Below, piece by piece: positions 13,302 through 33,915 of a stretch of DNA of 35,099 nucleotides (the first letter of the stretch is position 1; each line of letters opens with the position of its first letter). Under the pieces are notes generated by a model. The model had not been told where the DNA came from, ran no database searches, and was given only the letters and a program-made list of their open reading frames with translations. The stretch comes from Candidatus Woesearchaeota archaeon (GTDB taxonomy: Archaea; Nanobdellota; Nanobdellia; Woesearchaeales; UBA12501): assembly GCA_016180035.1 (NCBI GenBank), contig JACPCA010000007.1, forward strand, positions 1-35,099, read 5' to 3'. The translations under genes and the position numbers were made by a program.

Positions 13302-14165
13302 ATGAAAGAATACCTTGACATCGTGCGGTATGTTCTGGAGAACGGCCAGCGGAAGGTCAACCGGACTGGCGTGGCAGCGCTGAGCTGCTTTGCCTACTTC
13401 TACAAGGTAGACCTCCAGAAAGGATATCCTCTTCTGACGACAAAAAAGATGTATTTCAACTCCATGCTCCATGAATTGCTATGGTATCTGAAAGGAGAAG
13501 CGGATATCAAGAGCCTGCGCAAGGTCACGAAGATATGGGATGCATGGGCTGATGCAGAAGGGCGGCTGGAGACGGCGTACGGCCGCTTTTGGAGAAGGTA
13601 CCCCTGCCCGGAGTCTGGCGTTGATGGAGAAAAATGGGGAAGCAAGTGGAAAACGCGCGATCCGGAAACAGGCCAGCTCGTCTTTGACCAGATCAAGTAC
13701 GTCATTGACACGCTGAAAGAGGTCAAGGCAAATCCGGAAACGAGAAACCTGCGCAGGATGGTCGTGGTTGCATGGCATCCGGGCAATGCTGCAGAGAGCA
13801 AGCTGCCGCCGTGCCACTACACGTTCTGCTTTAACGTGATCGGCAACAAGCTCAACTGCCACCTCACCCAGAGGTCAGCAGACCTTGCTCTTGGCGTGCC
13901 ATTCAATCTTGCCTGCTATGCCCTCCTCACCATGATCATCGCGCGGATCACCGGTTTCGAGCCGGGGGAGTTCGGCCACACTCTCATCGACGCGCACATT
14001 TACGAGAATCACATCGAAGGCTTGAAAGAGCAGCTCCTGCGTCAGCCAAGACAGCTTCCCACGATCCGGTTTCCAGACAAGCCTCTTGAAGAGCTGCGCT
14101 TCGAGGATTTTGTGCTGGAGGGCTATGATCCGCACCCCAGCATCAAGTTTGATGTCGCGGTGTGA
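13302..14165 (+). CDS. thyA: Thymidylate synthase (ThyA type)
   Basis: 287 residues. It converts dUMP to dTMP using methylene-tetrahydrofolate as carbon donor and reductant. Visible family motifs are RTGVAALSCF near 21-30, GYPLLTTKKMYF at 41-52, and the nucleophile Cys171 in LPPCHYTFCF. RRMVVVAWHPGN precedes it, and LTQRSADLALGVPFNL and DAHIYENHIEGL close the site. A WGSKWKTRDPETG insertion makes it slightly longer than the bacterial enzyme. TATATAAAT at 13261-13269 and GGGGGT just before the ATG give it its own promoter and ribosome-binding site. It is followed, 84 nt on, by the DHFR-SHMT fusion that recycles its folate product. Confidence 0.96.
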   Translation: MKEYLDIVRYVLENGQRKVNRTGVAALSCFAYFYKVDLQKGYPLLTTKKMYFNSMLHELLWYLKGEADIKSLRKVTKIWDAWADAEGRLETAYGRFWRRYPCPESGVDGEKWGSKWKTRDPETGQLVFDQIKYVIDTLKEVKANPETRNLRRMVVVAWHPGNAAESKLPPCHYTFCFNVIGNKLNCHLTQRSADLALGVPFNLACYALLTMIIARITGFEPGEFGHTLIDAHIYENHIEGLKEQLLRQPRQLPTIRFPDKPLEELRFEDFVLEGYDPHPSIKFDVAV

Positions 14166-14249: not shown

Positions 14250-16043
14250 ATGGCAAAGGTCATCATCATCGCGGCGCTGGACGAGAATCGCGTCATAGGA
14301 AACAAGAAATCCCTGCCATGGCGCATCCCCGGCGACTTCCGCCACTTCAAGGACACCACCGACGGCCATGCCGTCATCATGGGCAGGACTACGTTTGAGT
14401 CGCTGGGAAAGCCGCTGCCAAACCGCATGAACATCGTCCTTACCTCACGCCCATTCAATGCGCCTGGCGTGTCTGTCTCCAAAGATCTTCGCTCTGCCAT
14501 CATCACCGCTGCCGCGCAGGGATACGGCAGCATCTTCCTGATCGGCGGCGCTTCTGTGTATGCAGAAGGGCTCCAGTACGCCGACGAGATGATCCTCAGC
14601 CATATTCCAGGAACACACGAGGGCGACACCTTCTTTCCGCAGTGGGATGCGCAGCAGTGGCAGATGGGCAGGGAGCAGCAGCGGGAGGGATTTGCTGTGC
14701 GATGGTATAACCGTATCAGCAACCAAGACGGCCATGCGCACACTGCTACGGCCACTCCGGCTGCCGCGGCATATCATCCTGCAGTTTATCCTGCATTATC
14801 CCGTTCCGATCCAGAACTCCACCAGCACGTCATCGGAGAGCGCCGGCGCCAGCAGGAAACCCTGAACATGATCCCGTCAGAGAATTATGTCAGCCCTGCT
14901 GTTCTTGAGGCAAGCGGCTCTGTCCTCGCCAACAAATACGCGGAGGGATATCCGAAAAAAAGGTATTATCAGGGCAACGCAAATGTTGATGAGGTTGAGC
15001 AGCTTGCCATCGACCGCGCCAAAAGGCTGTTCGGAGCAGAGCATGCCAATGTCCAGCCATACTCCGGCAGCCCGGCGAACATGGCGGTGTATTTCGCGCT
15101 GCTGAATCCTGGCGACACCATCCTCGGCATGAAGCTGGACATGGGCGGCCACCTGACGCACGGCCACAGCGTCAACTTTTCCGGAAAGCTGTACAATATC
15201 GTGCAGTACGGCGTTGACCGTGAGACAGGGCTGCTCGACATGGAGGAGATCCGCGAGCTTGCCCTGCAGCACCGCCCGAAAATCAGCGTCTCTGGCGCAA
15301 CAGCATATCCCCGCATCATCGACTTCAAGAAGTTCCACGACATCGCCAAGGAAGTCGGGGCGTACAGCTTTGCCGACATCTCCCATATTGCCGGACTCAT
15401 CGTCGGCGGCGCGCACCCGTCTCCCTTCCCGTTTACGGATGTGGTGATGACGACGACGCACAAGACCCTGCGCGGGCCGAGAGGGGCGATGATCCTGTGC
15501 AAGGAGGCCTACGCAAAAGCCATCGACAAGGCAGTGTTTCCAGGGCTGCAGGGCGGCCCTCACATGAACACGATTGCGGCAAAAGCAGCGGCATTCAACG
15601 AAGCCCTGCAGCCGCAGTTTCGCGACTACGCCCAGCAGATTGTGCGAAATGCGAAAGCGCTGGCCAGCACGCTGATGGATCATGGCCTCACGCTTGTCAG
15701 CGGCGGGACAGACAACCACCTTCTCCTGGCCGATCTCACCTCCCAAGGTGTCGGGCTGGGGCGGAAAGCTGCTGTTGCGCTTGAAGAGGCAGGCATCGTG
15801 ATGAATGCCAATACTATCCCGTACGATCAGAGCACGCCTTTCAGCCCCTCCGGCCTTCGCATGGGAACGCCAATCCTCACCACGCGAGGGATGAAAGAGG
15901 AAGAGATGCGCCAGGTCGGCGAGTGGATCGCTGCGGTCGTCAACGATATGGGCAACACGGCCCTGCAGCAGAACATACGAAAGAGCGTGGTAGAGCTCTG
16001 CAGCAGGTTTCCAGTATACCCGGCATACGGAGAGGGCTGTTGA
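14250..16043 (+). CDS. Bifunctional dihydrofolate reductase-serine hydroxymethyltransferase fusion
   Basis: 597 residues in a single uninterrupted frame. Residues 1-158 are a complete DHFR: VIGNKKSLPWRIPGDF with the acidic residue Asp29, the NADPH-binding GRTTFESLGKPLP, and LIGGASVY. An Ala/Thr/His-rich linker of about 25 residues follows. From about 186 to the end lies a full SHMT: RQQETLNMIPSENYVS, the substrate-binding YSGSPANMAVY, and the PLP lysine Lys405 in TTTHKTLRGPRG. No ATG lies between the domains at a place that would give a whole SHMT. DHFR reduces the dihydrofolate made by ThyA, and SHMT recharges it from serine, so the product is ThyA's cosubstrate. The next gene starts 1 nt after the stop. 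Confidence 0.93.
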   Translation: MAKVIIIAALDENRVIGNKKSLPWRIPGDFRHFKDTTDGHAVIMGRTTFESLGKPLPNRMNIVLTSRPFNAPGVSVSKDLRSAIITAAAQGYGSIFLIGGASVYAEGLQYADEMILSHIPGTHEGDTFFPQWDAQQWQMGREQQREGFAVRWYNRISNQDGHAHTATATPAAAAYHPAVYPALSRSDPELHQHVIGERRRQQETLNMIPSENYVSPAVLEASGSVLANKYAEGYPKKRYYQGNANVDEVEQLAIDRAKRLFGAEHANVQPYSGSPANMAVYFALLNPGDTILGMKLDMGGHLTHGHSVNFSGKLYNIVQYGVDRETGLLDMEEIRELALQHRPKISVSGATAYPRIIDFKKFHDIAKEVGAYSFADISHIAGLIVGGAHPSPFPFTDVVMTTTHKTLRGPRGAMILCKEAYAKAIDKAVFPGLQGGPHMNTIAAKAAAFNEALQPQFRDYAQQIVRNAKALASTLMDHGLTLVSGGTDNHLLLADLTSQGVGLGRKAAVALEEAGIVMNANTIPYDQSTPFSPSGLRMGTPILTTRGMKEEEMRQVGEWIAAVVNDMGNTALQQNIRKSVVELCSRFPVYPAYGEGC

Positions 16044-18455: not shown

Positions 18456-18524
18456 AAAACATTATGGGGGTATGAAGAATATAAATGTTACTAAACTCTG
18501 TCCAGATTCTTTTTTTCTTGCGAG

Positions 18525-18716
18525 TTATAACAAAAAATAATAAAAGTGCCCATAAGGGCACAACGGAACAAGCGCGCCGCCACGTTCGCAGTGCTCTATC
18601 AATTCCATTTTTTTGCTCCTCAACAGTGTGGAGCAAAAAAATGGACATGACTCTCCTATTGCGATGCGTGGCGGCGCCGTAATCCGTTACAGGCCCTTGG
18701 CCTGTTGTATTGTGAT
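18525..18716 (+). repeat. Structured repeat element, family 1, copy A
   Basis: Nested hairpin element. The outer arms are GCGCCGCCACG (18574-18584) and its complement (18667-18677), spanning 104 bp. The central 15-bp perfect stem is CCATTTTTTTGCTCC (18605-18619) with 18630-18644. Flanking small hairpins are GTGCCC/GGGCAC (18546-18561) and ACAGGCC/GGCCTGT (18689-18705). The ends are A-rich on the left and TTGTATTGTG on the right. It fills the intergenic space between mgtC-like and tmk and matches, inverted, the element at 25128-25300. Confidence 0.8.
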
Positions 18717-18805
18717 TTTGCTTCGCTTCTCCACGGTACTGTCATGATCCTATACTGAACTCCAGAAGCAGAACATTTAAAAATTCACCCTCCTTCATAC
18801 GAACT

Positions 18806-19426
18806 ATGAAAGGCCTTTTTATCGTCATCTACGGCGTGAACAATATCGGCAAGACTACGCAGGCCATGAAGCTGGTGGATCACCTGAAGAGAGAGGGCTA
18901 CAAGGCAGAGTATCTCAAGTATCCCAATTATGATTCCCCCACAGGCCGGCAGATCAGCGAGATCCTCCGCTCCGGCAGGCCGCAGGCGATGACAGAAGTG
19001 GAGTTCCAGACGCTGTACTTCAAGAACAGGCGTGAGTTTGAGCCGGCGCTGCAGAAGAAGCTCGAGGCTGGCACAATCGTTGTTGCGGAAGATTATGTCG
19101 GCACAAGCCTTGCCTGGGGCTCTGCAAAAGGGGCAAGCTATTTCAAGCTTAAGACCCTGAATGCCGGGCTCATCCAGGAAGATGTCGCTATCCTGCTGCA
19201 CGGCGACCGGTATGTCAACTCTGTCGAGCACGGCCACCTGCATGAGACAGACCCGGAGCTTGCAGAAAAAGTGCGGCAGAAGCATCTGGAGATCGGAAAA
19301 AAGCTCGGCTGGCTTCTGGTGGATGCGAATCAGCCGCTTGAAAAAGTGTTTTCAAATGTTCTTAAGGCAGTCATGCCGGTAGTCGAGATCCGCATCCTGT
19401 ACCCGATGATGCAGAAGAGAGGATAA
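18806..19426 (+). CDS. tmk: Thymidylate kinase-like protein
   Basis: 206 residues. The P-loop GVNNIGKTTQ lies at 10-19. KYPNYDSPTGRQISEIL corresponds to the substrate-binding segment and FQTLYFKNRREFEP to the next helix. VVAEDYVGTSLAWGSAKG corresponds to the dTMP kinase DR[YF]..S..AYQ motif, with the usual Arg missing after Asp. It would phosphorylate dTMP to dTDP, the step after ThyA. ACATTTAAAAA at 18773-18783 is a box A about 27 nt before the ATG, so the mRNA is probably leaderless. Confidence 0.82.
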   Translation: MKGLFIVIYGVNNIGKTTQAMKLVDHLKREGYKAEYLKYPNYDSPTGRQISEILRSGRPQAMTEVEFQTLYFKNRREFEPALQKKLEAGTIVVAEDYVGTSLAWGSAKGASYFKLKTLNAGLIQEDVAILLHGDRYVNSVEHGHLHETDPELAEKVRQKHLEIGKKLGWLLVDANQPLEKVFSNVLKAVMPVVEIRILYPMMQKRG

Positions 19427-19429
19427 TTG

Positions 19430-19484
19430 GGTGGTGGGTAGTAGGCAGTTGGCCCAACGTGCCCCCCAACCTACTGCCCACCAC
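19430..19484 (+). repeat. Long imperfect hairpin after tmk
   Basis: GGTGGTGGGTAGTAGG and CCTACTGCCCACCACC form an imperfect stem just after the tmk stop, enclosing a short loop with CCCAACGTG. There is no downstream T-run, so it is not a classical intrinsic terminator. It may protect the mRNA 3' end or be a small palindromic insertion. Confidence 0.55.
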
Positions 19485-19533
19485 CAAAAACAGATTCACA
19501 ATATTTATAAACAAAACTGATCCCTTCCAACAC

Positions 19534-20286
19534 ATGGCTCCTTCCGTTTGGCTGTCAACGATCTTGAGCGTGCTTCTCGTCAGCCTTATCTCTTTCGTCG
19601 GTGTTCTTGCCCTGTCGCTCAGCGCAAAGGCGCTCAAGAATATGCTGATCTATTTTGTGAGCTTTGCAGCCGGCGCCTTGTTCGGCGATGCGTTCCTCCA
19701 TCTTCTTCCGGAAGCGGTGGAAGAAGCAGGATTCGGGCTTCATGTCTCCCTCTACATCCTCATCGGCATCGCGTTCTCATTCGTGGTGGAGAAGGTCATC
19801 CACTGGAGGCACTGCCACCTGACCATGACGAAGGAGCATGCGCATCCTTTTGCCGTGATGAACCTGACTGGAGATGCCGTGCACAACTTCATCGATGGCC
19901 TGGTGATCGGGGCAAGCTATCTTGCCAGCTTTCCTGTCGGTGTTGCAACGACCATCGCCGTCGTGCTGCACGAGATTCCCCAGGAGATCGGCGACTTCGG
20001 CGTGCTCATCCACGGCGGGTACACCAAAGGCAAGGCGCTGTTCTTCAATTTTCTCACCGCACTGACAGCCGTTGTCGGCGCCATCATCGCACTGGCGGTC
20101 GGCGATGCGACAGGAAGCATGACGTCGTTTCTTGTTCCGTTCGCTGCCGGCGGGTTCATCTATATCGCCGGCTCTGACCTCATCCCGGAACTGCACAAAG
20201 AGATCAAGGCAGACAGGTCCATCCTCCAGCTGGTGTCGTTTCTTGCCGGCATCGGCATCATGGTAGCACTGCTGGTCGTTGAGTGA
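19534..20286 (+). CDS. ZIP family metal transporter
   Basis: 250 residues with about eight membrane helices. The helix-IV motif HNFIDGLVIGASYLASF and the helix-V motif HEIPQEIGDFG carry the metal-coordinating residues of ZIP importers (zinc, iron or manganese). A His-containing loop WRHCHLTMTKEHAH lies between helices III and IV. TTTATAAAC at 19504-19512 is 22-30 nt before the ATG at 19534, so this start is chosen over an in-frame ATG at 19459. The metal is not certain. Confidence 0.93.
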   Translation: MAPSVWLSTILSVLLVSLISFVGVLALSLSAKALKNMLIYFVSFAAGALFGDAFLHLLPEAVEEAGFGLHVSLYILIGIAFSFVVEKVIHWRHCHLTMTKEHAHPFAVMNLTGDAVHNFIDGLVIGASYLASFPVGVATTIAVVLHEIPQEIGDFGVLIHGGYTKGKALFFNFLTALTAVVGAIIALAVGDATGSMTSFLVPFAAGGFIYIAGSDLIPELHKEIKADRSILQLVSFLAGIGIMVALLVVE

Positions 20287-20366
20287 GAGATCGAGAAGAA
20301 AGGAGATAATAAAAAGAAATGGCAGGAGATAAAAAAAACGGCAGACGGTTATAGCTCACCACAAAA

Positions 20367-20489
20367 CTATCCGCCCTTTTCTTGCTGTTCTTCTTTCTTA
20401 TCCTGTTCTATCGTTGTCACTGCCTGCTCTGGTGCAAAAAACGTGTTGAGCTTTTTCACCCGGAGCTGTGCGTTCCAGCTTGCTGTCAT
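20367..20489 (-). CDS. Small 40-residue protein, unknown
   Basis: The frame MTASWNAQLRVKKLN... ends in a Glu/Gln/Lys tail (EQDKKEEQQEKGG). A strong Shine-Dalgarno (AAGGGGTGA) lies 4 nt before the ATG, better than most in this window, and a TATA-like run lies further upstream. No domain is recognised. It sits convergent to the ZIP gene and just downstream of dut on the same strand. Confidence 0.45.
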   Translation of the reverse strand: MTASWNAQLRVKKLNTFFAPEQAVTTIEQDKKEEQQEKGG

Positions 20490-20547
20490 CGTGTCACCCC
20501 TTGTTTAAAGACTGCGATATTTTTTCTCCAAACTCCTAACTACCAAC

Positions 20548-21072
20548 TCATGTCATGCCAGTATGGCCGAACCCTCCTTCTCCGCGATCAGTGGCGTCCA
20601 GCTCGCTGACGTCGTGCAGCTGTGCCGTCTCTATCTTGTTGAACACGGCCTGTGCAATCCTGTCGCCGCGCTGGATGTCCAGCGGCGCCTTGCCGAAGTT
20701 GAAAAGGATCACGCCGACAATGCCGCGATAGCCGGAATCGATCGTGCCGATGCCGTTCATCAGCCCAATGCCGTGCTTTGCGGCAAGGCCTGACCGCGCC
20801 CGGACGTGCATTTCATACCCCTCGGGGACAGCAACTTTTATTCCGGTAGAAACAAGCTTGAATTCGCCGGGCTGAAGGACCGTGCTCTCCGCGGCGTACA
20901 AGTCCATGCCAGCATCGCCTTTTCTTGCGTAGTGTGGGGTTGGAAGATCCTTATCCACCTTGCAGATCCTGACCTGGAGAACAGGCGGAGCTGGCGATGA
21001 TGCATTCTCTGCTGATGAGTTCTCTGTCAAGGAGGAATCCATTGAAGGAGCCATGATCATGGAGGTATTCAT
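20548..21072 (-). CDS. dut: dUTP diphosphatase (dUTPase)
   Basis: 174 residues containing all five dUTPase motifs in order: GDAGMDL, ARSGLAAKHGI, NGIGTIDSGYRG, GDRIAQAVF and RGEGGFGHTG. It hydrolyses dUTP to dUMP, keeping uracil out of DNA and feeding ThyA. An N-terminal Ser/Pro-rich extension of about 30 residues is unusual and probably disordered. A box A (TTTATATA on the minus strand, about 21098-21105) is 29 nt before the ATG at 21072, supporting the long form over internal ATGs. Confidence 0.95.
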   Translation of the reverse strand: MNTSMIMAPSMDSSLTENSSAENASSPAPPVLQVRICKVDKDLPTPHYARKGDAGMDLYAAESTVLQPGEFKLVSTGIKVAVPEGYEMHVRARSGLAAKHGIGLMNGIGTIDSGYRGIVGVILFNFGKAPLDIQRGDRIAQAVFNKIETAQLHDVSELDATDRGEGGFGHTGMT

Positions 21073-21148
21073 AGCGATAGTATTCTCAACAGCGCTATAT
21101 AAATTCAGTTATTCTCTAACATATCATGTTTAGAAATGTATATTCAAT

Positions 21149-21682
21149 CTATTCAATTTTTTTGTCGCCCTTGTCAAAGGAAAACATGTCGTGAAGGCCG
21201 TCTTCTCGTATCGAGCCGCTTTCTGCATCCACTTTGATGTTGAGCGTCTTGAACGTTTGAGTAACATAGGTGACATTCACGACCAGCCCGTGCTCTTTCG
21301 TCGCCTGGAGCACCATGACTTTCTTGACCGGCCGCTCTGCCGGATACTTTTTCTCCTGAAGATCATGGCATAGTGCGGCAACAGAATCAATTGTTTGGCG
21401 GACGTGCTTGGTATCAACAGCGATGATCCGTTCTGCGTCTTCCTTAAATATCTGCTCGTCTTCTTGGATGGTGAAGCTGCTGTCGTCATCCATGCTTTCG
21501 AACGTCGTCATGGTGTCGTTCTCATTGTAGTAGCCGACCTGCCACTGCATGCCGACCTTGCCTTTTTCTTCTCCGATCATGACAAAGAGGTGGGCGAGGT
21601 AGGAATGTGGATGAGAAGATTCCCACGCCTTGTATATCTGCTGCGATTCCAGCTGCCGTAGTTTTGAAAGAAAATCCATCAT
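21149..21682 (-). CDS. Hypothetical soluble protein, unknown
   Basis: About 177 residues, acidic, with no signal peptide or membrane segment. It begins DFLSKLRQLESQQIYKAW across its first helix. A mid region has NENDTMTTFESMDDDSSF, and the second half contains KKVMVLQATKEHGLVVNVTYVTQTF, which looks like two beta strands. No family is recognised. A box A (CCATATAAACC on the minus strand, 21702-21712) points to the ATG at 21682 or the adjacent one at 21679, not the ATG at 21694. Confidence 0.6.
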   Translation of the reverse strand: MMDFLSKLRQLESQQIYKAWESSHPHSYLAHLFVMIGEEKGKVGMQWQVGYYNENDTMTTFESMDDDSSFTIQEDEQIFKEDAERIIAVDTKHVRQTIDSVAALCHDLQEKKYPAERPVKKVMVLQATKEHGLVVNVTYVTQTFKTLNIKVDAESGSIREDGLHDMFSFDKGDKKIE

Positions 21683-21748
21683 TTGGGAGAACAAGAGATG
21701 GTTTATATGGTTTTTGGTGGGTATGGCTCTGTAGAAAATCTTTCTTCG

Positions 21749-21903
21749 TTTTTAGCCGTCAAATGCCTGTTTTCGGCTAAAAAAAAAACAGATTTTGGGC
21801 GCCGCCACGCTTAACTTATCTTGTTAAGTTTATTTTTTTCCCACCCTGCCCGGGCGAGGTGGGAAAAAAATAAAGTTTTCAAAGAAAACCACGGCGGCGC
21901 CCC
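21749..21903 (+). repeat. Structured repeat element, divergent relative of family 1
   Basis: The outer arm GGGCGCCGCC (21797-21806) pairs with 21893-21902. Inside are CTTAAC/GTTAAG (21810-21828), a perfect 17-bp stem TTTATTTTTTTCCCACC (21829-21845) with 21858-21874, and GTTTTC/GAAAAC (21875-21889). A further stem TTTTTAGCCG/CGGCTAAAAA (21749-21783) flanks it on the left. It shares the GCGCCGCCACG arm with the other elements but not the outer hairpin module. Confidence 0.65.
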
Positions 21904-21964
21904 AAATAGGGCAATATTTTCTAATGAGCAGGCGGTTATGATACCCGTCTTTGCTGTACTAACC

Positions 21965-23170
21965 TTATCTCCGTCCCCCTCTCATCCATGCCAGCTTTTC
22001 GGCTTTTTTACGGAGGCGAGCCCTGCGCTGCTCCTCTGTTTCTCCATCTCTTTTGACTGGCGCATTCAGTGATGCGTTCTGCGCTTGCCCGGCTGCTTCT
22101 TGCGCTGGAACATGATCCAGCGGGTGATGAAGGCTGTCAATGCCGCTCCCTCTTGCTCCTTCTTTGCCAGCATCGCCGCCATTTTCGGTATCATCGTCAT
22201 CATCTTCATTGTCTTTATCACTATCGTCTTCCTCATCGTCAAGGCCATCAGCTTCCGTAGCATCATCGTCGTCATCGTCAGGATCAATTGCTTCTTCAGT
22301 CACTCTTCGTTCCAGACGGCTTGGCCTGCCGGCCCGTTGGATGCCAACTTCAAGCTCCTGGAGCTGGAAGCCGTACGTTGATTGTATATAGCTCTGGACG
22401 GACGTTAGGATCTGCCGTCCCCATGCTTGCATATCTCCTTCTCGTATCATGACATCAGTAAACCGGCGCACCGCGTACTCCAATCCATCCTTTTCCGCAG
22501 CGAGAAGCTCGGTGGCGCCGCCGTGCATGAATACATACGGATACATCCGCCGCAAAGCATCAATTTGCGCCCGCCGGCCTTTATCCTTAAACCTGTTTAG
22601 GAGAAAGAGGACAACGGTCGTCCCCTCGGATTCAAGCTCTCTCATGTGGGCAAGCAGGTCATCGGGGGAGAGAAAGCGGTCCATCGGCTCCGTGCTTCTT
22701 TTCATGACATCCTTGATGGTGAATCGTTCGTATGCCTTCCACATCTCTTTCATGAGGCCCTCTTTTGTTTTTCCAGGCTTCAGGAGGTAGCACGCCCTCC
22801 GTTTTTTATTCCTGCTCTTGACTTCTACAAGGTAGATATCCTTGACGCCTTCTTGCTCTGCGATGCGGTAGAATTTTTGGTAGGGCAGCTCTTCTTCTGT
22901 CAAGCCGCATGTGGATCGGAATGTCTCGTAGAATCCTGAAAGGGTCACGAGGCGGGACGCAAGATCTGCTTTTACTTTCTGCAAGAACCATCCCGGAATG
23001 CCATCATTCGGCCCGCGCTCCTCTTTCTTAAGAAGCTCGGAGAGTGAAAGAAAATGGGCTGCTTTCTGGTAAGGGGGCTCTACTACGCGGACAATGTCCT
23101 CCAGCTTATAGTACGCTGAAGGATCTATCTCATAATTCGTGCCAAAAGGGATAGCTGGATCTCTTGCCAT
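21965..23170 (-). CDS. Hypothetical protein with long Asp/Glu-rich linker
   Basis: 401 residues. A folded-looking N-terminal part of about 290 residues includes RACYLLKPGKTKEGLMKEMWKAYERF cut over two helices, and VVLFLLNRFKDKGRRAQIDALRRMYP, which looks like an alpha/beta unit. A very acidic stretch of about 45 residues follows (DPDDDDDDATEADG, EEDDSDKDNEDDDDDTENG), and then a basic C-terminal tail (EEQRRARLRKKAEKLAWMRGGRR). No known domain is recognised. A box A (GGGTTTATATAG on the minus strand, 23192-23203) is 27 nt before the ATG. It is transcribed divergently from the endonuclease Q gene across a 74-bp spacer. Confidence 0.65.
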   Translation of the reverse strand: MARDPAIPFGTNYEIDPSAYYKLEDIVRVVEPPYQKAAHFLSLSELLKKEERGPNDGIPGWFLQKVKADLASRLVTLSGFYETFRSTCGLTEEELPYQKFYRIAEQEGVKDIYLVEVKSRNKKRRACYLLKPGKTKEGLMKEMWKAYERFTIKDVMKRSTEPMDRFLSPDDLLAHMRELESEGTTVVLFLLNRFKDKGRRAQIDALRRMYPYVFMHGGATELLAAEKDGLEYAVRRFTDVMIREGDMQAWGRQILTSVQSYIQSTYGFQLQELEVGIQRAGRPSRLERRVTEEAIDPDDDDDDATEADGLDDEEDDSDKDNEDDDDDTENGGDAGKEGARGSGIDSLHHPLDHVPAQEAAGQAQNASLNAPVKRDGETEEQRRARLRKKAEKLAWMRGGRR

Positions 23171-23244
23171 ATGCTGCGGGCAATAGGGATTCTATATAAA
23201 CCCTCCTGGTAACATTTTTAAAGGTAGGTGGGATTTGGCGTTCC

Positions 23245-24591
23245 ATGGCTGTGCATACCACTCCCCTCTTCGCCGACTTCCACATCCATTCCAAGTATGC
23301 CCGCGCCTGCTCGAAAGACCTCGATCTTGCCCATCTGGAACAGTATGCGCGGATGAAGGGTGTTGACATTCTGGGAACTGGTGACTTTCTTCACCCCCAA
23401 TGGCAGGCAGAGCTGAAAAAGCACCTGCATGATAATGGGACGGGCATCCTTCGGAGCCAGTCCGGCTTTCCCTTCATCCTCCAGACCGAGCTCTCGTTCA
23501 TGTATTCTGACGGAGGAAAAGGGAGGCGCGTGCACTTGCTCGTACTGGCCAAGAGTATGGAGGTCGTGGATCAGATCACCGAAGCCATGAAGAAGCATGG
23601 ACGGGTGGATTATGACGGCAGGCCGGTGTTCGGCATGACGTGCCCGGCATTCGTGGAAGAGATGATGCAGATCGATCGTGACATCGAGATCATTCCCGCG
23701 CACATCTGGACGCCGTGGTTCAGCCTGTTCGGCTCCAACTCCGGATTTGACAGCGTCAAGGACTGCTTTAAGGACCAGGCCAATCACATTCACGCGCTGG
23801 AGACCGGATTATCCAGCGATCCCCCGATGAATTGGCGGCTTTCCCAGCTGGACAAGTACCAGATCGTGTCGTTTTCGGACTCCCACAGCTTCTGGCCGTG
23901 GCGGATGGGGCGGGAAGCGACCTTGTTTGATATTGACCAAAAAAAATTGTCGTATGCCGCATTCTTGAGCTCTCTTCGGACTGGAGATCGGCTTGCTGGA
24001 ACAGTGGAAGTGAATCCGAATTATGGAAAGTATCATCTTGACGGGCATCGCAGCTGCAAGGTCTGCTTCACTCCGGAAGAATCCAGAAAGCACAAGAACA
24101 TCTGCCCGGTGTGCCGGAAGCCGCTGACGATCGGCGTGCTGAACCGTGTTGAAGAGCTGGCAGACCGGCCAGAGGGATTCGTACGGCCTGACGCTCCCCT
24201 ATTTCATTCCATGATCCCGCTTTCAGAGCTTCTTGCTGCTGCATTGGGCAAGACGGTGGCGAGCAAGCCGGTGTGGGCAGAATATTCCAAGATAACCGAG
24301 CCCATCGGCCCGGAATTCGACGTCCTGCTTCGCGCGCCAGAAGAACAGCTGGTGGCAGCAGCGGGAGAGAAAATTACCGGCCTTATCCTTCAGAACAGGA
24401 AAGGGCTGCTCCACGTCACCGGCGGTTTTGATGGAGAGTACGGGAAGCTGGCCATCCCCGGACAGGAGTTGGTACACCAGCAAAAGCAACGATCTTCTAA
24501 AAAAACCAGAGAAGCGGCGCCAACAGCGTCATCCATGCCCCAGCATACGCCAGTCAAGCGCTCTCAGCGCGGGCTTGAGGAATGGCAGTGA
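23245..24591 (+). CDS. Endonuclease Q (PHP-domain DNA repair nuclease)
   Basis: 448 residues matching EndoQ, which nicks DNA 5' to deaminated bases (uracil, hypoxanthine) and abasic sites. The PHP domain starts ADFHIHSKYARACSK with metal ligands His13 and His15, and DILGTGDFLHPQW follows. A zinc finger uses Cys271, Cys274, Cys287 and Cys290 and is followed by PLTIGVLNRVEELADRPEG, a very characteristic EndoQ segment. The last residues, QRGLEEWQ, resemble a PCNA-interacting peptide (Gln441, Leu444, Trp447) at the end of a disordered tail. CATTTTTAAAGG at 23212-23223 is the box A. Together with dUTPase it limits uracil in DNA. Confidence 0.9.
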   Translation: MAVHTTPLFADFHIHSKYARACSKDLDLAHLEQYARMKGVDILGTGDFLHPQWQAELKKHLHDNGTGILRSQSGFPFILQTELSFMYSDGGKGRRVHLLVLAKSMEVVDQITEAMKKHGRVDYDGRPVFGMTCPAFVEEMMQIDRDIEIIPAHIWTPWFSLFGSNSGFDSVKDCFKDQANHIHALETGLSSDPPMNWRLSQLDKYQIVSFSDSHSFWPWRMGREATLFDIDQKKLSYAAFLSSLRTGDRLAGTVEVNPNYGKYHLDGHRSCKVCFTPEESRKHKNICPVCRKPLTIGVLNRVEELADRPEGFVRPDAPLFHSMIPLSELLAAALGKTVASKPVWAEYSKITEPIGPEFDVLLRAPEEQLVAAAGEKITGLILQNRKGLLHVTGGFDGEYGKLAIPGQELVHQQKQRSSKKTREAAPTASSMPQHTPVKRSQRGLEEWQ

Positions 24592-24695
24592 TGTCCGGTT
24601 GAGGGATGTTTGATCGGTTTTGTGGCTGTTTGTTATAAACGAAAAGACAAAAACAGAGAAATAAAGAAAAAACTGATGATAAAAGGAGAAAAAAT

Positions 24696-24713
24696 GTCCC
24701 ACGAGCGTGGGAC
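24696..24713 (-). terminator. Terminator-like hairpin after the small basic protein gene
   Basis: On the minus strand GTCCCACGCTCGTGGGAC forms a perfect hairpin, followed by ATTTTTTC. It lies 10 nt after the stop codon of the minus-strand gene at 24724-24825. Confidence 0.65.
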
Positions 24714-24723
24714 ACTGGAAGAT

Positions 24724-24825
24724 TTATCGCCTTCTCCGCTTGGAGGACGACTTTTTCTTTGATGATTTTCTGCTGCTTGATCTCTTCTTACCAGCAGATG
24801 CTTTTCTTCTTCGTCTTGCTGCCAC
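24724..24825 (-). CDS. 33-residue Arg/Lys/Ser-rich basic protein
   Basis: Starting from GTG, the frame reads AARRRRKASAGKKRSS and continues as Ser/Lys clusters to a C-terminal KRRRR; almost every residue is Arg, Lys, Ser or Ala. GAGGTG lies upstream in the ribosome-binding position. A box A (ATTTATAAAG on the minus strand, 24893-24902) lies further up, and a hairpin plus T-run follows the stop, so all signals of an expressed gene are present. The composition suggests nucleic-acid binding or compaction, like protamine or histone-tail sequences, or a ribosome-associated peptide. It is too short for family assignment. Confidence 0.6.
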   Translation of the reverse strand: MAARRRRKASAGKKRSSSRKSSKKKSSSKRRRR

Positions 24826-25035
24826 GTTACACACCTCTTTTTCGTTTTTTCTCGCGAAAAAACAATGTTATGAAACTTTATACTCTTTTTTCTTTATAAA
24901 TATTTCGTTTTTGGCATAATTTTTGCGGCGAACGCCATTTTTTGTTTTTGTTGCGCCATTGCCGCGCTTGTTTCTGCCGTGCCGCCATGTTTTTTGTTTC
25001 TGTTTTATTTTTCTTGTTCGTTTCAGGACAAAAAA

Positions 25036-25460
25036 TGATTAACGTGCCATGGTACAACGGACATCAGCGCCGCCGCCTATCGATTTGTTCTTCCAACCCT
25101 TTTTTCTTTCAATTTTTGTCAAAAAACAATAAATGTGCCAGGGGCACAACGGGGTATGGCGCCGCCACGCATAGGCCTATAGATCATGTCCGTTTTTCTT
25201 GCCCCTCACCGGTGTAGGGCAAGAAAAACGGAATTGATGGAAAATTGCAATCGTGGCGGCGCGGGTGTCCCGTTACCGGCTCTGCCGGTTTTATTGTTCT
25301 TTTATGAAATTAAACGCGACGGCGCGGATGTCCGTTAATGCTCTTAGGCATTTTTGTTGTTTTTGGTTATGACTTGCAAAAAAATGGAATTGGTAACGTA
25401 CTGCAATCGTGGCGGCGCATATGTCTCGTTACAGGCCTTTGGCCTGTTGTATTGTTTTCT
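25036..25460 (+). repeat. Nested cluster of family 1 structured repeats (copy B plus partial copies)
   Basis: The complete copy is 25128-25300. Its arms GCGCCGCCACG (25159-25169) and complement (25252-25262) span 104 bp. The central stem CCGTTTTTCTTGCCC (25190-25204) pairs with 25217-25231. Small hairpins are TGTGCC/GGCACA (25134-25148) and ACCGGC/GCCGGT (25275-25289). Outside it, 25058-25076 pairs with 25316-25334 at 17 of 19 positions, nesting the copy in a larger palindrome. A right half-copy (25374-25460) repeats the CGTGGCGGCGC arm at 25408-25418 and the ACAGGCC/GGCCTGT hairpin at 25431-25447. The T-rich stretch 24910-25035 holds further weak GCGGCG/CGCCGC fragments. No gene is visible from 24826 to 25583. 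Confidence 0.8.
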
Positions 25461-25740: not shown

Positions 25741-25961
25741 CTCAAAACTCGCATCGTTGAAAGCTTGTGAATGAGTTTGTGGAATCCTAGATCAGATGGT
25801 TTTACTTTGTTAGCCACTCGAAGGAGAGATATTCGCCGGAGCGAAGCGGAGGCTACCGACACATCGATATAGTTCCTCCGACGGAAGCTTATTTTTAAAA
25901 AGCATTTTGTTTTCCTTCCGGTTAATCGAGAAGTTGTGCGATGAGGAAAGAAAACAAAATG
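25741..25961 (+). repeat. Structured repeat element, family 2, copy A
   Basis: About 220 bp of consecutive hairpins. The first stem is around AAACTC/GAGTTT (25745-25778). A 31-nt core at 25832-25862 is identical to 33785-33815 and contains TTCGC-CGGA-GCGAA. The GCTTATTTTTAAAAAGC palindrome follows. A terminal 17-bp stem CATTTTGTTTTCCTTCC (25903-25919) pairs with 25945-25961 at 16 of 17 positions. The 25-nt terminal loop holds AGTTGTGCG (25932-25940), conserved in copy B. No coding frame is evident. Confidence 0.8.
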
Positions 25962-31524: not shown

Positions 31525-31565
31525 CTATTGGGCTAACAGAAGATAGGTAAACTGGTGAAATGGTT

Positions 31566-32393
31566 ATGCAATACCTAAACAAAATTATTAATGGTGATGT
31601 TCTCGAAGTAATGAAGAAGTTACCAGACAGTAGCATTCATTTAGCGGTAACTTCCCCCCCCTATAATGTAGGAAAAGATTACGATTTCCACAACGATCAA
31701 ATGGGTTATGATGATTATTTAGCTTGGTTAAATAAAGTATGGGTTGAAACAAAAAGAGTTTTAGTACCCGGGGGAAGATTTTGTTTAAACATAGCGCCTA
31801 CCGGGATTAAAGAATTTCTTCCGATTCATCATGATTTTACAACTCAAATAAGAAAATTAGGGATGCTTTTTAGAACAGAAATTGTTTGGTATAAACAGAC
31901 TATGCTAAAACGAACTGCGTGGGGTAGCTTCAAGAGTCCATCCAACCCTCATATAGTTCCGTCATGGGAATATGTTTTAATATTTTCAAAAGATCAAAAT
32001 AAGTTGATTGATACTGAAGAAAATGCAGATATTACAAAAGAAGAATTCATGAAATTCTCAGATGGAATGTGGTATATCCCACCAGAAAGGAAAAGAAATG
32101 GTCATCCCGCACCATTCCCAGAAGATTTAATTTACCGGTTAATTAAATTTTACAGTTTTAAAGGAAATACGGTATTAGATATGTTTGGTGGAACAGGAAC
32201 GGTGGCCGCAGTTGCTAAAAAAAATAATCGTAATTTTGTACATATCGATATCTCAAAAGAATATTGTAAAATAGCTGAAAAAAGACTGACAACTGAAAAA
32301 GAAAAATTATCACAAGTAAAATTAGATATTGTCCAAAATAAAAATATTCTCATAAAAAGAATAGGTGAACCTCTTGCCGCAATCCAAAGATGA
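31566..32393 (+). CDS. DNA methyltransferase, beta class (N4-cytosine or N6-adenine)
   Basis: 275 residues. The catalytic motif IV TSPPYNVGKDYD (about 29-40) comes before the SAM motif I, DMFGGTGTVAAVAKKNN, near 205-220. This circular order defines beta-class enzymes; SPPY occurs in both m4C and m6A members. GHPAPFPEDLIYRLIKFYS is typical motif X-adjacent sequence. GGTGA 7 nt before the ATG at 31566 favours it over the ATG at 31560. The gene is clearly AT-richer than the flanking core genes and is followed, overlapping, by an HNH nuclease, so the pair looks like a type II restriction-modification system. Confidence 0.88.
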   Translation: MQYLNKIINGDVLEVMKKLPDSSIHLAVTSPPYNVGKDYDFHNDQMGYDDYLAWLNKVWVETKRVLVPGGRFCLNIAPTGIKEFLPIHHDFTTQIRKLGMLFRTEIVWYKQTMLKRTAWGSFKSPSNPHIVPSWEYVLIFSKDQNKLIDTEENADITKEEFMKFSDGMWYIPPERKRNGHPAPFPEDLIYRLIKFYSFKGNTVLDMFGGTGTVAAVAKKNNRNFVHIDISKEYCKIAEKRLTTEKEKLSQVKLDIVQNKNILIKRIGEPLAAIQR

Positions 32394-32976
32394 TAAAAAC
32401 GAAATTGTGCAGTCAGAACTATTAATGGAATTCTTCAAGAAAAATCCTAAGCGTGATATTCCTCATCCAGAAATAGTTGACTGGGTTACTACAGAATATC
32501 TTAAGTGTACCGGAAAAGTTTTTCGTGATCCAGATAGGGGAATTCGTAAACTTCATCAAGAGGGATACTTACAGAAAATTGGAAAAGGTGTTTATAGATA
32601 TGACCCTAAACATATTGAGACCAGAGAATTAGAAGACTTTACACTATCAGTAAAAGAAGCAATATTTAAGCGAGATGACTATAAGTGTGTTATCTGTGGA
32701 AGAGGAAATAAGGAGGGATTTGAACTTCATGCTGACCACATAAAACCAAAAGATTTTGGTGGAGAAGCAACACTTGAAAATGGACAAACTCTTTGTAGCC
32801 AGCATAATTTTCTTAAGAAAAACCTGAAACAAACAGAAACAGGGAAAAAACTATTCATAAGATTATACAATCTATCTAAGAAAGAAAATAACAAATCACT
32901 AATGAAATTTTGTGCTGAAGTTCTAAACGTGTTTGAGAAGAATAATATTAATGGACATATCGTTTGGAAAAGATAA
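32365..32976 (+). CDS. HNH endonuclease, predicted type II restriction enzyme
   Basis: 203 residues. A winged-helix-like N-terminal part (about 15-80; PEIVDWVTTEYLKCTGKVF, then GIRKLHQEGYLQKIGKGVYRY) is followed by the HNH domain. CVICGRGN holds Cys108 and Cys111, LHADHIKPKDFGG holds the catalytic His125, and LCSQHNFLKK has Cys144 and His147. The start is either GTG at 32365 or TTG at 32374, the latter with AGGTGA in front. It overlaps the methyltransferase gene by about 20-29 nt, consistent with coupled expression. The target sequence cannot be told from the protein. Confidence 0.85.
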   Translation: MNLLPQSKDDKNEIVQSELLMEFFKKNPKRDIPHPEIVDWVTTEYLKCTGKVFRDPDRGIRKLHQEGYLQKIGKGVYRYDPKHIETRELEDFTLSVKEAIFKRDDYKCVICGRGNKEGFELHADHIKPKDFGGEATLENGQTLCSQHNFLKKNLKQTETGKKLFIRLYNLSKKENNKSLMKFCAEVLNVFEKNNINGHIVWKR

Positions 32977-33665: not shown

Positions 33666-33915
33666 CCAAAACTCGCATCGTCCAAATCTTGTGGGCGAGT
33701 TTTGGGTATGCCCCAAATCAGCGGATTTTGCTTTGCGCGAAATCCACTTCAGGCTGCAAGGCGGATTTGTGGTGATGCTCTTTTTTCGCCGGAGCGAAGC
33801 GGAGGCTACCGACACGTTGATGTAGTTTCTTGGTTGGATCCTGAGGAAAGAAACGCCTTGTAGTTTTCTTCCGCTGCTGCGTGGTAGTTGTGCGGAGAGG
33901 AAGAAAACTACAAGG
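33666..33915 (+). repeat. Structured repeat element, family 2, copy B
   Basis: The first stem CCAAAACTCGC (33666-33676) pairs perfectly with 33695-33705. A GGATTT/AAATCC hairpin region lies at about 33723-33768. The 31-nt core shared with copy A is at 33785-33815. The terminal stem CCTTGTAGTTTTCTTCC (33856-33872) pairs perfectly with 33899-33915, and its loop holds AGTTGTGCG at 33886-33894. Its stem bases differ from copy A yet pair completely. It ends 12 nt from the tRNA-Arg 3' end. Confidence 0.82.

Follow-up and report, generated by a model that had tools for sequence, protein, structure and literature searches.

Recursively nested, MITE-like palindromes, many of them probably mobile passengers of IS5-type composites, in a woesearchaeal genome

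The nested-hairpin repeats in a 35,099-nucleotide stretch of DNA from a Candidatus Woesearchaeota archaeon (the window) belong to a family of MITE-like palindromic elements in a new, modular form that nests recursively, and not to a demonstrated RNA family. On balance we judge it probable that they are non-autonomous mobile palindromes of the MITE-like foldback kind, many of which are passengers in IS5-type composites and whose arms are kept complementary by copying at the DNA level. Contig C58, which makes up the window, belongs to a genome of 1.08 Mb in 66 contigs (G000); this was compared with the genome of a relative in the same genus (G001), both being draft assemblies. As a BLAST query, element 1 of the window (18525-18716) gives 56 matches within G000. 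The family comprises at least 27 full copies in this genome, plus half copies, and 14 copies in G001 (13 found with the exact core pattern and one with a compensated core change, CGTGCTCC/GGAGCACG), i.e. 41 homologous copies with the A/B arm sequences in common, all of these counts, taken from searches and stretches, being lower bounds. The original prediction, made from the window alone, had been staked on further copies in the genome, and these exist.

The prediction described two elements in opposite orientation, element 1 and element 2 (25128-25300), with the same 11-bp arm and the same arm-to-arm span of 104 bp, with 15-bp core stems that differ yet pair perfectly, and with outer hairpins that likewise differ yet pair; each of these statements is confirmed. 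The features of the two elements, of the structures around them and of a carrier MITE between them are as follows.

18510-18545 (+): outer half-core remnant TTTTTTTCTTGC and linker GAGTTATAACAAAAAATAATAAAA, a linker seen at nested-copy junctions
18546-18561 (unstranded): element 1, outer hairpin GTGCCC-ATAA-GGGCAC, in the hairpin slot compared across copies
18574-18584 (+): element 1, stem 1 arm GCGCCGCCACG, B-type on this strand
18605-18619 (+): element 1, core stem, 5' side, CCATTTTTTTGCTCC
18620-18629 (+): element 1, central flip-flop loop TCAACAGTGT
18630-18644 (+): element 1, core stem, 3' side
18667-18677 (+): element 1, A-type partner arm of stem 1, CGTGGCGGCGC
18689-18705 (unstranded): element 1, outer hairpin ACAGGCC-CTT-GGCCTGT
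21725-21930 (+): IS5-type carrier MITE with terminal inverted repeat GGCTCTGTAGAAAAT, 7 of 9 target-duplication bases matching, and its own nested palindrome with loop CCTGCCCGGGCGAG
25045-25108 (+): left half of the element enclosing element 2, C-type arm GCGCCGCCGCCTATCG...CCCTTTTTTCTT
25134-25148 (unstranded): element 2, outer hairpin TGTGCC-AGG-GGCACA
25159-25169 (+): element 2, stem 1 arm GCGCCGCCACG, A-type
25190-25204 (+): element 2, core stem, 5' side, CCGTTTTTCTTGCCC
25217-25231 (+): element 2, core stem, 3' side, GGGCAAGAAAAACGG
25252-25262 (+): element 2, B-type partner arm of stem 1, CGTGGCGGCGC
25275-25289 (unstranded): element 2, outer hairpin ACCGGC-TCT-GCCGGT
25337-25455 (+): right half of the element around element 2, with a hairpin, the linker TTTTGTTGTTTTTGGTTATGACT, the half core TGCAAAAAAATGG, a B-type arm and the hairpin ACAGGCCTTTGGCCTGT

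From the outside in, a unit has a linker rich in A and T (AATAACAAAA in G000 and ATGATAATC in G001), followed by a small hairpin, the tetranucleotide AACG and stem 1. Some 20 bases without pairing separate stem 1 from the core stem, which holds a loop of 10-12 bases; beyond the loop the same parts follow in mirror order. A single strand of such a unit would fold as a four-way junction, with a closing AT-rich stem, a small hairpin on either side and a long two-part central stem. The AACG/CGTT beside the hairpins is conserved in both species, while the hairpin slot itself is filled by at least six different hairpins across copies. Arms can be told apart by their unpaired parts (A/B in G000, X/Y in G001); the unpaired segments are conserved between the two genomes, and we judge the A/B and X/Y arms to be homologous. 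Type C arms, a third kind, have a stem of their own, GCGCCGTCGCCT. The folding z-score is -10.9 for element 1 and -8.5 to -8.8 for element 2, and no shuffle equals either.

Full copies are found inside half copies. In the window, half copies (25045-25108 and 25337-25455) lie on both sides of element 2, so the actual structure there is larger than 25128-25300 and extends over about 25045-25455. Such a nested build would arise from a putative central targeting, with new palindromes inserting at or close to the middle of existing ones. Pairs of small TA-flanked hairpins (TTGRYAAYTG..., GAGAGCTTTGAAAA...) also occur at exact points of nested elements (L004, L006, L007, L017, L047 and L048), points that are empty in other copies of these elements; the pairs resemble very small MITEs that duplicate TA.

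The original reading overlooked that IS5-type MITEs carry many of the copies. The terminus GGCTYTGTAGAAAAT, which occurs in the flanks of many copies, has 130 matches in G000, versus six for the reversed pattern. Fifteen of 25 terminus-bounded elements are flanked by direct repeats of 9 bp that differ at no more than two positions, where 0.6 are expected from swapped flanks, and exact target duplications in the bounded elements are of width 9 only. The common plain carrier is a MITE of 200-206 bp, and the one at 21725-21930 in the window is of this form. Ten bounded composites hold a family unit, and L004 would make an eleventh but has a true terminus at just one end; the composite L007 has a perfect 9-bp duplication, GGTGGCTGC, and in L010 and L051 eight of the nine target-duplication bases match. 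In other families of the order the terminus is again multi-copy, on MITEs with perfect 9-bp duplications. An 883-bp element between such termini in the genome G055, a copy itself without target duplication, encodes a DDE transposase of IS5 type, which matches PF01609 (1.5e-11, 45 bits, cut-off 23) and the IS5_2 model NF033579 (1.2e-34, 120 bits, below the NCBIfam cut-off of 140). Many units of G000 would be passengers in composite MITEs that have this terminus and duplicate 9 bp of the target, with an IS5-family DDE transposase moving them in trans. IS903 makes a 9-bp duplication. The two domain matches, the GGC-type terminus and the 9-bp duplication resemble the IS903-like group of the IS5 family, to which the G055 transposase, with its score below the NCBIfam cut-off, can be assigned only tentatively; the family unit, unlike an insertion sequence of that group, encodes nothing. 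No IS5-type (PF01609) transposase was found in G000 or G001, drafts that may miss the gene and for which the last search was run without a positive control, and a PF13737 search was uninformative, with zero matches even among the controls. Two further leads were set aside: a 1369-bp interval between two termini on contig C9 holds no transposase-like gene by eye, and four PF01609 transposase loci of relatives lack the terminus.

Carrier-type MITEs of other families (L102-L115, from G055, G088, G100, G070, G062 and G051) otherwise differ from one another, but all have a hairpin on one side and, in their central part, a motif close to GACAAGGGGGATGTCCCTTACGGGGAATGTC. Another repeat (CAAAACTCGC...GCGAGTTTTG and TTCGCCGGAGCGAAGCGGAGGCTACC) has two copies in the window, at 25743-25920 and 33667-33873, and modules of it also occur within the large carrier MITEs L080, L086 and L087.

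Units also exist on their own. Carrier termini are absent around both window copies and around the 13 G001 copies taken with their flanks, and stand-alone units have no target duplication, their own flanks being no more alike than swapped ones in either genome. If these units too are mobile, as we infer for both window copies among others, they may have spread by loss of the carrier ends, by recombination between palindromes or by an undescribed route. Empty sites, which the original prediction proposed to look for, are seen as presence/absence differences between corresponding gaps of the two genomes. Upstream of tmk there is a family unit in the window and a carrier MITE in G001, and upstream of another gene (L062/L087) a unit in G001 and a carrier MITE with a perfect duplication in G000. 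Beyond the gene at 23245-24591 a G001 unit precedes a small basic gene; the matching gap of G000 is empty, and the G000 copy near this gene lies on its far side. As read from the two assemblies, these differences are a pattern of mobile DNA. That the tmk and L062/L087 sites are filled in both species, by different types of element, hints at shared insertion hot spots. Both the small, very basic protein gene (about 24720-24830, minus strand) and a hairpin that follows it, AAAATGTCCCACGAGCGTGGGACAC, are conserved in G001. By a simple gene heuristic, eight copies lie between convergent genes, eight between divergent genes and 18 between tandem genes, i.e. with no preference; a role as terminators was rejected, copies not being in excess at convergent genes.

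Elsewhere in the window, judged by eye, the 597-aa frame at 14250-16043 (+) resembles a fusion of dihydrofolate reductase with serine hydroxymethyltransferase; it adjoins thymidylate synthase (13302-14165), and tmk and dUTPase are close by. At 31560-32976 (plus strand, again by eye) an HNH-type gene comes after one that resembles a DNA methyltransferase, and the two are possibly a restriction-modification pair.

The pairing of the arms was assessed on 36 aligned copies, with shuffles that ignore relatedness and with a slid control and an arm-swap test that agree with them. Nine of the 11 pairs of stem 1 have changed on both sides, and the two stems together show 76 two-sided changes versus 20 in shuffles; paired cells make up 98.7%, versus at most 58% when the alignment is slid. 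The picture is unchanged with the G001 copies alone. Own arms pair better than swapped ones, the observed value being reached by none of 5000 shuffles for all copies, by 2 of 5000 in G001 and by 53 of 5000 in G000 alone. Given the two-sided changes, the slid control and the swap test together, the base changes are truly matched, and pairing is kept in old, diverged copies. To this extent the claim of covariation beyond simple inverted duplication holds; its second part, that covariation marks selection for a folded DNA or RNA, is not supported by the kinds of mismatch and the orientations of the loop. Among 946 stem cells, 927 are Watson-Crick, seven are G·T and ten are A·C, with neither strand favoured, and pairing intermediates are nearly absent. 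Relative to the arms, the central loop of G000 copies reads TCAACAGTGT or its exact reverse complement ACACTGTTGA at 13:13, with one undecided, and that of G001 copies at five versus six, with two undecided. A flip of this kind is also seen in the carrier MITEs. Only DNA inversion turns a loop around relative to its arms. The G·T/A·C symmetry and the two loop orientations suggest that a DNA process acting alike on both strands is at work, for instance template switching or the inversion of cruciforms.

The near-perfect covariation over the 36 copies thus probably arises from copying between arms in DNA, and not from selection on RNA. Template switching or cruciform repair would keep the arms complementary and would also invert the central loop, a mechanism suggested by mismatch and loop counts that are themselves small. 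For palindromes in the mitochondria of nematomorphs (hairworms), whose arms likewise stay identical while their sequence changes between species, repeat conversion by template switching or repair, and not function, has been proposed (PMC6649704). Those palindromes lie in coding genes of mitochondria, however, whereas the archaeal family consists of dispersed homologous elements.

Neutral arm copying does not explain the core stem of G001, in which 16 of 17 pairs are invariant while the remainder of the unit has diverged, and this leaves room for a binding protein; selection may act on the core stem, whose sequence is unusually conserved. A further reading appears unlikely to us: that the archaeal host, or else a novel mobility protein, keeps the unit as a DNA device, a palindrome with a four-way junction and a core stem recognised by a dedicated protein, which would be replicated or inverted by way of a hairpin intermediate (the flip-flop loop) and would spread by a new mechanism that makes no target duplication. 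Doubtful to a similar degree is a cruciform DNA of benefit to the host, serving nucleoid organisation, recombination or segregation and kept at about 30 intergenic places. The near-constant core stem amid diverging flanks and the pairing held in old copies would suit it, as would strand symmetry and presence in all gene arrangements, but the sites turn over between two species of one genus and the units are tied to transposon termini. The narrow distribution of the family argues against it as well: BLAST gives no match in 58 other relatives, and the covariance-model search that the original prediction proposed returned, elsewhere in the order, only weak matches in four of 286 other genomes (G235, G252, G190 and G003), which are T-rich palindromes with GC-rich outer stems of similar build whose shared sequence is too small for them to be called homologues. 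A search of viral contigs with the core pattern, and one of phages and plasmids with element 1, gave no match.

That the repeats are a dispersed structured RNA, small or cis-regulatory, with stems kept by selection on the transcript, is in our estimation quite improbable. The strong two-sided covariation, the very stable folds and the conservation of core stem and unpaired arm segments between the two species are what would recommend it. A transcript under selection would be expected to accept G·U pairs on its strand but to exclude A·C. With seven G·U against ten A·C, wobble pairs are not favoured here, and as the loop is reverse-complemented in half of the copies, one strand would read two different loops. 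There is moreover no preferred gene position, and the sites differ between species. Rfam gave no family above the gathering score except a tRNA, and otherwise weak chance matches to miRNAs, in keeping with the original prediction, which recognised no described family; in the open papers, as distinct from the subscription literature, neither the palindrome family nor the carrier MITE family was found described.

The REP/REPIN elements, too, are palindromes scattered through genomes; their hairpins come in inverted pairs, each next to a conserved tetranucleotide, GTAG or CGTC (PMC3733652). The hairpins at both ends of our units, inverted and flanked by the conserved AACG/CGTT, together with the stand-alone copies without target duplication, would be consistent with elements of this kind mobilised by a Y1 (RAYT/IS200-type) transposase. 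The tag, however, is CGTT, and the large central stem is foreign to REPINs. No Y1 transposase (PF01797) was found in G000 or G001 by a search that was positive in four relatives and five controls, so the family lacks support on a defining trait of REPINs, and we regard this affiliation as very improbable. Independent inverted duplications or chance palindromes, which have nothing in their favour beyond the presence of inverted repeats, are refuted by the 41 homologous copies in two species and by structure far beyond that of shuffles.

The reading of the family as mobile, MITE-like palindromes fits its members being short, gene-less, multi-copy and intergenic, with inverted-repeat termini and strong stem-loops, and the composites having target duplications and, probably, a transposase provided in trans by a related insertion sequence. 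The family departs from the usual MITE in its three-level nested palindrome with interchangeable hairpins and linkers, in its strongly covarying arms, and in the existence of units without termini or duplications. It documents modular, self-nesting palindromes in a small DPANN genome, together with a carrier MITE family that makes 9-bp duplications across the Woesearchaeales. It is also a warning case, in that two-sided covariation need not mean selection on RNA, for which the symmetry of G·U and A·C pairs together with loop inversion offers a simple discriminating test.
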